NCBI RefSeq assembly: GCF_002259595.1
Contig: NZ_MWWU01000002.1
Location: 806,001 to 870,000 of the forward strand
DNA from: Aeriscardovia aeriphila
GTDB taxonomy: Bacteria; Actinomycetota; Actinomycetes; Actinomycetales; Bifidobacteriaceae
DNA: 64,000 nucleotides
Direction of reading: 5' to 3'
Part shown: positions 807-35,246 of the stretch, in pieces
Position numbering within the stretch: the stretch's first letter is position 1
Layout: the number at the start of each line of letters is the position of its first letter
The notes under the pieces: model-generated
Database searches by the model: none
What the model saw: the letters and a program-made list of their open reading frames with translations, nothing else
What the model was told of the DNA's origin: nothing
Translations under genes and position numbers: made by a program

Positions 807-852
807 GAGATTACCACAGCGCATATTCCCCTGTGGTAATCTCCTTTCTTTA
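807..852 (+). terminator. Rho-independent terminator after tesB
   Basis: A perfect 13-bp stem (807-819 with 831-843, GAGATTACCACAG arm) has an 11-nt loop and is followed by CTTTCTTT. It lies 39 bp after the tesB stop. The lower stem (GAGATTACCA) is two mismatches from the dispersed AGATTATCAG word found across the window and may be a diverged copy. Confidence 0.85.
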
Positions 853-31904: not shown

Positions 31905-33626
31905 GTGAAGATTCTGCCTGCCTACTATGTTTCCGCTCTGGCCAGCGCCGCCGCGCCGAAACTGGCGATTACTGCGGTGACGCCGCTCGAGCGCGCTGCC
32001 CGCTCCAATGATGCGGAGGGCATTGCCATTGCAACGATCCACGACGCTCGCGGTGAGGAATTTGACGTGTCCGCAGCGACGGGAGATGCCAGCAATGCCA
32101 CCCTCAAAGAGCGTTTCCAAGCAGGCCAAGCCGTAGCGAAAACGTCCCAGCGCAGCAAGCTCGACTTTTCCCTCGAGCTGCCGTATGTGTATAAGGAGAT
32201 CCCGCTGCACGAGCAGGGTTCTGAGTTTCGCGCGGTGATGATCGCGGCGCATAACGTTGGTCATACCTCGTATTTGACGGCGTTGAGCAACGCGCAGGCA
32301 ACGGCTTTGGGCTGGGCAATCGCGAGAATCCACCAGCTCGACGCGAATTATTTGTTGAGTGCTGACTCACAAGCTTATTCGGGCTCAATCGTCCGCGCGC
32401 AACTCGCACAATGGTTGCGAGCCTTGCAATCTCGCCAGCTCGTGGCTCCGGCAATCATGCACTCCTGGCAGCAGCTTCTCGACATGGAGCACGTGTGGAA
32501 GTATGCGCCGGCGGTCACGCATGGCGATTACGAGTCGGCTGATATTTTGTTTACTTCTTCTGACGCGGTGAGCGCGATTCTCAACTGGGAGCACTACCAG
32601 GTGGGCGATCCGGCTCGCGATTTTGCGTGGCTGACCGACCCGATTATCCCTGGCTCCTTGCGCGACCGCGTGTTGACGAGTTATGCGCAGGCGATGGACG
32701 CTCGTATGGACGGTTCGATTATGCCGCGCGCTCGTTTGTGGCGGCAGATGGGTTTGGTCAGCGACTTACTGGCTGGGCTTGACCAAGCTGATCGTAACCG
32801 TGTTGCTGCTGCTCGTCAGGCGTTGGATGCTGAGGCTCAGGCTTTGGCTCCTGAGGTTGAGGCGGTGGCTCCGCACCGCTCGTCGCAGGCTGCTTCAGCT
32901 GATTCTGGGGTTTCTAGGGCTGATGGAACTTCCCGGGCCTCTGATGTTCAAGGCGCTGCTGGTGGCCAAGGTGTTTCTGGTGGTCAGGGTTCTCCGGATG
33001 CTCACGGCTCTTCAACGGCTCCAGATTATCAGCACAATGTCAATCAGGATGCCGATGATTCGACCCGCTCGGGCGAAATCCCAGATCACTCTTCGGTGAA
33101 CTTCTCCGCTGTTTTTGGCAGTGCATCTGAGGATGATTCGCCTTCCTCGGCAAGCCAGCCGTCGGCTCGGATCAGCCTCGACGAAAAAGGTGGGCTCGAG
33201 CGTTCTGGCTCGTGGGCACCTGACGTCACTTCCGCGAGCTCAGAGGCTTCTGCTGATGGCAGCTCGGCCAATACGTCCGACAGAACTGATGCCAACGTGG
33301 CGTCATCACCTGCTCAGAGCAAAGAGAGCAGTGATAATCTTGCGTCCTACCGAGCGGTGAGTTTGGGCTACGACCAGCAGCAAGTGGTTGCCAGCGACCC
33401 CACCCCGAGCTCTCCTGCTTCCGTCAATGTTGCTGATGCGGTGAGCCAGGTGATCAACCGTGTCACCGGCTCGAACACCCAAGAAAGCTTGGGAAATGAC
33501 GCCGAGCCGAGCACCGTCGCCTTTGACGCGCAAGCAGTTGCTCAGGGCCGTGCGAAAGCGCAGAATTATCCGATTCACATTCGCGATAATTCAGGCGTGT
33601 CGGAACGTCCCCGCGATCACAGGTGA
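31905..33626 (+). CDS. APH-like kinase with long low-complexity tail
   Basis: 573 aa from a GTG start. Residues 1 to about 290 are an aminoglycoside-phosphotransferase (choline-kinase-like) fold: the catalytic loop THGDYESADILF holds Asp208, and NWEHYQVGDPARDFAWL replaces the IDWE...GDP motif. The usual catalytic-loop Asn is Asp here. Residues 310-573 are Ser/Ala/Asp/Gly-rich and disordered, with two copies of the dispersed word (33023-33032 and 33332-33340). An APH-like gene next to uvrD2 recurs in actinobacteria. The substrate is unknown and a resistance role is unlikely. Confidence 0.75.
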   Translation: MKILPAYYVSALASAAAPKLAITAVTPLERAARSNDAEGIAIATIHDARGEEFDVSAATGDASNATLKERFQAGQAVAKTSQRSKLDFSLELPYVYKEIPLHEQGSEFRAVMIAAHNVGHTSYLTALSNAQATALGWAIARIHQLDANYLLSADSQAYSGSIVRAQLAQWLRALQSRQLVAPAIMHSWQQLLDMEHVWKYAPAVTHGDYESADILFTSSDAVSAILNWEHYQVGDPARDFAWLTDPIIPGSLRDRVLTSYAQAMDARMDGSIMPRARLWRQMGLVSDLLAGLDQADRNRVAAARQALDAEAQALAPEVEAVAPHRSSQAASADSGVSRADGTSRASDVQGAAGGQGVSGGQGSPDAHGSSTAPDYQHNVNQDADDSTRSGEIPDHSSVNFSAVFGSASEDDSPSSASQPSARISLDEKGGLERSGSWAPDVTSASSEASADGSSANTSDRTDANVASSPAQSKESSDNLASYRAVSLGYDQQQVVASDPTPSSPASVNVADAVSQVINRVTGSNTQESLGNDAEPSTVAFDAQAVAQGRAKAQNYPIHIRDNSGVSERPRDHR

Positions 33627-33815: not shown

Positions 33816-34043
33816 ATGGACGTCGAACTGGGAATGATGCACTGCCCTCACCCTGTCACTTTTTCCACTGATTCCAGTGCTGAGGAAGTGAACGCCGCTC
33901 TGGTCGAGGCTCAGATGAAGGGATCCGTGGCCGATCTCGTTGATGACAAGGGCCGTCACATTTTGGTAAACGGCGCTGCTCTGGGTTACGCCATCGTCGG
34001 TTCGCAAACCCGCCGCCCGGTTGGCTTCGGCTCGTTGGAGTAA
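33816..34043 (+). CDS. DUF3107 family protein
   Basis: A 75-aa member of the actinobacterial DUF3107 family, recognisable from the DVELGMMHCPHPVTF start and the RPVGFG end. Function is unknown. The start is the ATG at 33816, three bases after AGAAGGA; the upstream TTG is not needed. It is probably monocistronic and ends at the terminator built from two dispersed words. Confidence 0.85.
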   Translation: MDVELGMMHCPHPVTFSTDSSAEEVNAALVEAQMKGSVADLVDDKGRHILVNGAALGYAIVGSQTRRPVGFGSLE

Positions 34044-34067: not shown

Positions 34068-34123
34068 CGCTCCAGATTATCAGGATGCTTATGCCATTCG
34101 TACTGATAATCTGGAGCGTTTTT
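34068..34123 (+). terminator. Terminator built from an inverted pair of the dispersed word
   Basis: CGCTCCAGATTATCAG (34068-34083) and CTGATAATCTGGAGCG (34103-34118) form a perfect 16-bp stem with a 19-nt loop, followed by TTTTT. Each arm contains one exact copy of the 10-mer. It lies 24 bp past the DUF3107 stop. Neisserial uptake sequences form terminators in the same way. Confidence 0.93.
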
Positions 34124-34124
34124 G

Positions 34125-35246
34125 TTACTCCACCACCGGCAACACGCCGCGCGTCACAATAGCCTGCAGAGTTTGCGGGTCGGTGAGATTCTCCCCCAAC
34201 AGGTTGGGCTTACCGTGAGGCCCATGCCAATCCGAACCGCCCGTGGCCAACAATCCCAAGCGAGAGGCGAGTTTGAGCAGGCGCACCCGTTGCTCAGGCG
34301 AATTCTCGCGATGCCACACTTCCAGCGCATCCAAACCCAGATCGGCAAAATGGCGGATATCCTGGTCGCTCAAAATTTCCTTGTTGCGCGCAAAAGAGCC
34401 AGCATGGGCAATCGCGACAACGCCTCCCGCATCCTTGACGATGGTAATCACCTCATCGACTTGCGGGGAGATCACCGGCAGGTAAAACTCCGACTTGCTC
34501 GACACCGGGCCTAAGAAAGCCTCGGAACGGGTAGCAAACAAGCCTTTCGCCACCAAGGTGTCGGCAATATGCGGCCTGCCGATCGTCGTCTGAGCGGTGC
34601 CACCAGCCTGCTTGAGTACATCCTCCCAGGTGATGGGGTATTTTTTGCCCATCATTTCCACCATTTTCTTGGTGCGACGCACGCGGTTAATGCGAGTAGT
34701 GCGAAACAGTTCAGCCAGCGCTTCATTCGTGGGATCGTACAACCAGGCGAGCATATGCACGGAGGTGTGTCCCCATTCTGCGGTGATTTCCGTTCCGCGA
34801 ATCAGAGGCATGTTCAGCTCGCGAGCGCGCTTTTCGGCTTCGCTCCAGCCTTGTGCAGAATCGTGATCGGTGAGCGCAATGCCTGCAATCCCAGCGTTCT
34901 TCGCCAGCTCGATCGCCTCACTGGGTGTGCACTGGCCGTCGGAAAACACAGTATGAGTGTGCAAATCCCAACCTTGGGAGTGCTCAGGCGACTCATGCCA
35001 AGCGAGGGCTGCGCGCACATGCGTACCAAGCTGACCTGCGCCAAGTTCGGCGCGAAGGCCGCCAGTTGCATCGCCGCGCTCGCCACGGAGCTGACCGTCA
35101 CCCTCGCCGCCGACTTCGCCGTCAACGTGGCCGTGCAAAAGCGCGCGCTCCGCCTCGCTCATGCCGCCAGAATAGTCAGGCAGCATATCCGGCTGAGAGT
35201 CAGCTGAGAGATGGCGCTTTTCGCTGGTTTCGAAATCCGATTTCAC
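34125..35246 (-). CDS. PHP-domain metal-dependent phosphoesterase
   Basis: 373 aa. The PHP core starts at about residue 97: DLHTHTVFSDG (metal ligands), ALTDHDSAQGW, AHAGSF and GGSDWHGPHGKP. It is of the TrpH/YciV type, whose members are 5'-3' exoribonucleases or 3',5'-bisnucleotide phosphatases. The first 95 residues are Gly/Glu-rich and uncharacteristic, so an internal start such as Met21 or Met29 is possible. It is convergent with DUF3107. Confidence 0.83.
   Translation of the reverse strand: MKSDFETSEKRHLSADSQPDMLPDYSGGMSEAERALLHGHVDGEVGGEGDGQLRGERGDATGGLRAELGAGQLGTHVRAALAWHESPEHSQGWDLHTHTVFSDGQCTPSEAIELAKNAGIAGIALTDHDSAQGWSEAEKRARELNMPLIRGTEITAEWGHTSVHMLAWLYDPTNEALAELFRTTRINRVRRTKKMVEMMGKKYPITWEDVLKQAGGTAQTTIGRPHIADTLVAKGLFATRSEAFLGPVSSKSEFYLPVISPQVDEVITIVKDAGGVVAIAHAGSFARNKEILSDQDIRHFADLGLDALEVWHRENSPEQRVRLLKLASRLGLLATGGSDWHGPHGKPNLLGENLTDPQTLQAIVTRGVLPVVE

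Follow-up and report, generated by a model that had tools for sequence, protein, structure and literature searches.

Two inverted copies of an abundant 10-bp word lie immediately downstream of the DUF3107 gene in the gut bacterium Aeriscardovia aeriphila LMG 21773 (Bifidobacteriaceae). Do they form the transcriptional terminator of this gene, do such pairs terminate transcription in general, and what is the word for? The pair is located in a stretch of 64,000 nucleotides, hereafter called the window, and a first-pass annotation had read it as a rho-independent terminator, pointing to the inverted uptake sequences of Neisseria as a parallel. The published draft of this genome, from a strain whose source is pig caecum, comprises 12 contigs and 1,631,097 bp (PMC5540593). 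The stretches sampled here cover 864 kb of the 1.63 Mb; part of them were picked for holding pairs, and unselected stretches served to check the expected number of pairs.

Results

The Hairpin Downstream of the DUF3107 Gene

The features of the site are listed in Table 1. Read directly from the window, the hairpin consists of 16 perfect base pairs and a 19-nt loop, and is followed by T5 and then a G; the perfect 16-bp stem and T5 previously annotated 3' of the DUF3107 gene are exact to the base. The hairpin starts 25 nt past the DUF3107 stop codon, and the gap between the two 9-mer cores is 21 nt, within the 16-24 spacing class described below. The plus-strand RNA folds at -30.9 kcal/mol (z = -5.95 versus shuffles), and the hairpin is the most stable among the 18 pairs of this orientation in the genome. 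The minus-strand RNA folds too (-28.2 kcal/mol), without a U-run: the T-run is present on the DUF3107 strand only, and the strand in the sense of the PHP-domain gene reads CTGAAAATAAG. Since the minus strand folds but lacks a U-run, the element would be a one-way terminator serving DUF3107, and transcripts of the PHP gene would contain the hairpin but no U-run. A terminator scan of the 81-nt gap between the two genes found no second terminator. The site therefore has the anatomy of an intrinsic terminator, that is, a stable hairpin with a U-run directly after it, 3' of a gene, and we consider it very probable that positions 34068-34123 are the intrinsic terminator of the DUF3107 transcript.

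Table 1. Coordinates of the features discussed in the text. Positions are those of the window unless a locus (L), genome (G) or contig (C) is given; G000 and G002 are the two word-bearing genomes.
Feature	Position	Strand	Remarks	Basis
Nearest single word copy	33023-33032	-	Followed by GGAGC	
DUF3107 gene (PF11305)	33816-34043	+	Stop at 34043; terminator would serve this gene	E 8.6e-19
Left arm, CGCTCCAGATTATCAG	34068-34083	-	Minus-strand word (34074-34083) and flank	Sequence, fold
Loop, GATGCTTATGCCATTCGTA	34084-34102		19 nt	Sequence
Right arm, CTGATAATCTGGAGCG	34103-34118	+	Word (34103-34112) and GGAGCG flank	Sequence, fold, flank consensus
T5 run	34119-34123	+	Motif positions +15 to +19, A/T-rich patch in single words	
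PHP-domain gene (PF02811)	34125-35246	-	Convergent; stop codon adjoins T-run	
Variant-word pair, AGATTACCA...TGGTAATCT	808-842		39 nt past stop codon, tail CTTTCTTT; second word-type inverted pair in the window	
22-bp palindromes (G000)	C5:24298, 146665, 219169, 451193, 942329; C7:59501, 84754		T-run at 451193 only	
comEA-comEC-holA	L131, L130 (G000 C5:183156; G002 C2:61098)			
Tad/Flp pilus cluster	L138, L137 (G000 C1:157159; G002 C3:48425)		TadA-like ATPase, T2SSF proteins, Flp-like and TadE-like pilins	

The GGAGCG stretch of the stem had been described as a clamp added to the word. It is present, but single copies of the word normally carry a matching 3' flank (consensus CTGATAATCT-C-(A/G)-A-G), as does the lone copy at 33023-33032, and the stretch by this match is to be regarded as part of the extended word and not as an independent addition. 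The T-run likewise lies where single copies bear an A/T-rich patch. Since the clamp agrees with the usual flank and the T-run lies at the usual patch, few changes would have been needed to make a terminator. Two inverted extended words may by themselves account for part of the hairpin, and the word's own A/T patch may partly account for the T-run.

The DUF3107 3' End in Relatives

The hairpin is kept in the sister genome G002, whose nucleotide identity to the source genome is 94.3%, with one G-U pair at the inner end, some differences in the loop and an identical T5. Among the family and order members whose DUF3107 3' end was folded, six others (L055, L061, L065, L072, L076 and L082) have strong hairpins of -28 to -45 kcal/mol that are unrelated to the word. 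No strong hairpin, only weaker structures, was found after DUF3107 in five relatives, including the two other genomes of the genus. Because strong hairpins unrelated in sequence occupy this place in most of the relatives examined, the word pair appears to fill a standing terminator slot: a predicted terminator is common after DUF3107, and the two word-bearing Aeriscardovia genomes have one built from their own word. The order of evolutionary events at this terminator is one that we infer. The first-pass reading of this site, in which two inverted words make up a rho-independent terminator, is well supported by the hairpin, the T5, the convergent genes, the conservation in the sister genome and the hairpins of the relatives.

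Abundance and Extended Motif of the Word

The word CTGATAATCT is present in 27 copies in the window, where 0.08 are expected. Genome-wide there are 376 exact 10-mers, distributed 180/196 over the strands, and 0 copies of the reversed word, which served as a control. The sister genome contains 367 copies. The word is absent or at background level in the two other genomes of the genus and in 55 genomes of the family and order; the word-bearing genomes are two only, and they are close relatives. A de novo word search in six relatives did not reveal a comparable abundant word. In G003 (L034-L039), many copies of a repeat like GTGTTCCCCGCGCATGCGGGGATGATCC resemble a type I-E CRISPR array.

Enriched variants of the word differ at two positions (TGGTAATCT, TGTTAATCT, TGACAATCT and TGCTAATCT). 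When single intergenic copies were aligned on the core, an extended motif of ~30 bp emerged, gATtaaGCGCACTGATAATCTCAAGcaATtC, with A/T patches centred ~12-13 bp on each side of the core, about one helical turn; the sister genome yields the same motif. In the aligned parts of the two genomes, 94-96% of the 9-mer words are intact, versus 74-77% of scrambled 8-mers, and conservation of the word is alike inside and outside genes. Viral contigs gave 8 matches to the extended word, which by our own estimate is roughly chance level.

About half of the copies are intergenic, compared with an intergenic share of ~16% of the sample; genes were called with a simple script, and these placement fractions are approximate. 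Over the first 25 nt past stop codons the word density is ~6 per kb, and it drops to 0.7 per kb far from gene ends. Words are depleted about five-fold in promoter-only gaps (0.2-0.3 per kb versus 1.0-1.5); a density of 0.7 per kb is also given for these gaps, set against the post-stop value. Within 25 nt past stop codons, antisense words are about twice as frequent as sense words (26:15 and 28:13 in the 3' regions of G000 and G002). The longest word-free run seen spans 13.7 kb (L087 3362-17045; G000 C5:43362-57045); foreign DNA was ruled out as its explanation, as the stretch is the S10-spc ribosomal protein operon.

Inverted Pairs and Terminators Genome-Wide

Screening of the whole genome for word pairs within 30 nt revealed 18 oriented like the DUF3107 pair and 4 in the opposite orientation. 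A shuffle that kept the word-to-gene-end distances predicts 0.54 pairs per 400 kb in unselected stretches, or ~2-3 per genome. The excess over this position-matched chance is 6-8 fold, in one orientation only, and mere clustering of words at gene ends is ruled out as its cause by the position-preserving shuffle. In the sister genome there are 19 pairs of this kind, and several occupy the same loci as in the source genome. The expectation that inverted pairs would sit 3' of genes was confirmed (13 of the 17 pairs with tabulated context are located <=75 nt from a stop codon), but the accompanying one, that they would be followed by T-runs, was not: T5 or longer directly after the stem was found for 2/18 pairs (~0.14 expected), namely the DUF3107 pair and the pair at C5:451193, whose tails are T5 or T6.

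In both the source and the sister genome, the cores of a pair are 4-6 or 16-24 nt apart, and none of the spacings fall at 7-15. The extended motif would explain these two modes. At a spacing of 4 nt, each core would occupy the A/T-patch position of the other, and at 16-24 nt both cores would share one central A/T patch. Seven near-identical palindromes of 22 bp, AGATTATCAG-NN-CTGATAATCT, in each of which exactly 2 nt separate the 10-mers, were observed in G000. Inverted pairs of TGGTAATCT or mixed variants with T-rich tails were also seen, at 808-842 in the window and at ~17800 in L090, ~1000 in L095 and ~5860 in L089; some variant-word hairpin pairs have the opposite orientation.

We then looked at the terminators themselves. 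At the 266 gene ends sampled, 2 of the 92 strong terminators (2%) hold the exact word and 6 (6.5%) a one-mismatch word; scrambled words predict 0.03 and 0.7 in terminator hairpins, respectively. Within the 3' regions with a strong terminator, 49/53 words lie outside the hairpin. In Neisseria, 54-57% of the high-confidence terminators contain the DUS word, and in Pasteurellaceae 16-29% contain the USS (PMC1852404). Words thus enter terminators of A. aeriphila above chance, but far below the share in either of these groups. The Neisseria-like rule, with most pairs T-tailed and a large share of terminators containing the word, does not hold here, and the earlier generalization that inverted pairs act as terminators does not stand as a rule, being right only in part. 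Since 16/18 pairs are without a T-run, pairing alone does not signal termination.

Putative Competence and Pilus Genes

The genes comEA, comEC and holA lie in a row, all with open reading frames, in both word-bearing genomes, and words are present inside the cluster. The possibility that comEC is a pseudogene was ruled out, as the TGA that falls within the match is the regular stop codon closing the frame. Both genomes also contain a Tad/Flp pilus cluster, which suggests itself as a place to look for a candidate receptor of the word. Competence and pilus genes are also found in relatives without the word; therefore, such genes are not specific and do not explain it.

Discussion

The explanation that best accounts for these results, and which we regard as likely, is that the DUF3107 terminator is made of two words, that the word is of the uptake-signal type, and that pairs arise through packing, a few of them having been taken over as terminators. 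Polymerase leaving the DUF3107 gene would make the 16-bp hairpin followed by U5 and be released before reaching the convergent PHP gene. The word itself would be a DNA-level tag present at hundreds of sites, tolerated mainly just past stop codons and presumably recognized by the competence pilus. Inverted pairs would arise and persist mainly since two full extended motifs pack at certain spacings, and the few that gained a T-run, such as the DUF3107 pair, would have been taken over as terminators.

Several features expected of an uptake sequence were found: a high copy number balanced between the strands, phased A/T flanks, an excess at gene ends together with inverted pairs, maintenance of the word, and genes for the machinery. 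With the extended phased motif, the gene-end and orientation biases, the two spacing modes, the conservation and the competence and pilus genes, the analogy with uptake sequences drawn by the first-pass annotation has become stronger. Whether the word is an uptake sequence nevertheless stands, in our judgement, in even balance.

Comparison with known systems shows how far the analogy reaches. The USS pairs of Pasteurellaceae (H. influenzae AAGTGCGGT; PMC1852404) are alike in that an abundant short word is embedded in a longer motif with A/T patches, pairs up at gene ends in inverted form with one orientation favoured, yields some T-tailed terminators, and has two spacing classes. These are ~8 and 19-22 nt there, also explained by the extended motif (PMC1852404), and 4-6 and 16-24 nt in A. 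aeriphila. Unlike the USS, the word belongs to another phylum and is unrelated in sequence, its A/T patches flank the core on either side and not on a single side, and it is present in 2-6% of the terminators versus 16-29%. The DUS pairs of Neisseria (GCCGTCTGAA; PMC1852404) are likewise inverted, located 3' of genes in one favoured orientation and in part T-tailed; however, there are hundreds of paired copies there, and in A. aeriphila 18 pairs, 2 of them T-tailed. The available part of a study on the actinobacterium Micrococcus luteus describes transformation that uses comEA, comEC and a Tad/Flp pilus (PMC6370729), the same gene set as that found in A. aeriphila; an uptake word is not mentioned in that part, and competence of A. 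aeriphila is putative, being deduced from its genes.

Other explanations of the pair and of the word have to be weighed. The pair might be kept as a two-way DNA signal of packed extended words, with the hairpin as a by-product and termination incidental or absent. This would agree with the 16/18 pairs without a T-run, with spacings that leave both extended motifs intact (4-6 or 16-24 nt, none at 7-15), with long loops, which are poor for terminators, and with the near-identical 22-bp palindromes that make up 7/18 pairs, six of them without a tail. The DUF3107 site itself argues against it: its hairpin is the most stable of all the pairs, its T5 is on the appropriate strand, and the 81-nt gap holds no other terminator. 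The hairpins that most of the relatives examined have in this position argue against it too. We consider this reading unlikely for the DUF3107 pair.

The remaining alternatives concern the nature of the word. It could be the site of a chromosomal DNA-binding protein (a regulator, nucleoid or segregation factor), the pair being a dimer operator; the 22-bp palindrome AGATTATCAG-NN-CTGATAATCT recurs, and TGATAATC resembles part of the Fur box. This is improbable: words are depleted in promoter-only gaps and located past stop codons, around half of them are intragenic and face either way, single copies predominate, and the strand skew that Chi- or KOPS-like signals would show is missing. More doubtful still is an RNA-level 3' UTR element acting in processing or stability instead of a DNA tag: the dense packing <=25 nt past stop codons and the antisense excess there would fit, but words occur in both orientations, half of them intragenic, and the motif is equally conserved inside genes. 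A dispersed mobile repeat (MITE or REP), with the DUF3107 pair as one inverted copy, could account for the high copy number, the intergenic excess and some of the palindromes. We give it very little credence, since the conserved part is only ~30 bp with graded flanks in unrelated surroundings, variants are tolerated at set positions, and the position matrix contains no longer element shared around the word copies.

To our knowledge, only two Gram-negative families have so far been found to use 'self-DNA' uptake tags. Our search for an actinobacterial uptake word found none in open-access papers. On the uptake-signal reading, Aeriscardovia would have an uptake sequence of its own, read by a Tad/Flp-type competence pilus and without precedent among Gram-positive (monoderm) bacteria; it would be of independent origin and convergent with those of Neisseriaceae and Pasteurellaceae in extended-motif design, gene-end placement and occasional reuse in terminators. 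Going by sequence, we see this proposal as equally open to either outcome. If it is true, an uptake word can evolve in a cell that has neither an outer membrane nor a classical type IV pilus, and gene-end placement, inverted pairs and terminator reuse would have a third independent instance, which would help to separate the effects of uptake bias from selection for termination. A. aeriphila is available as a cultured type strain, which makes the uptake idea testable.
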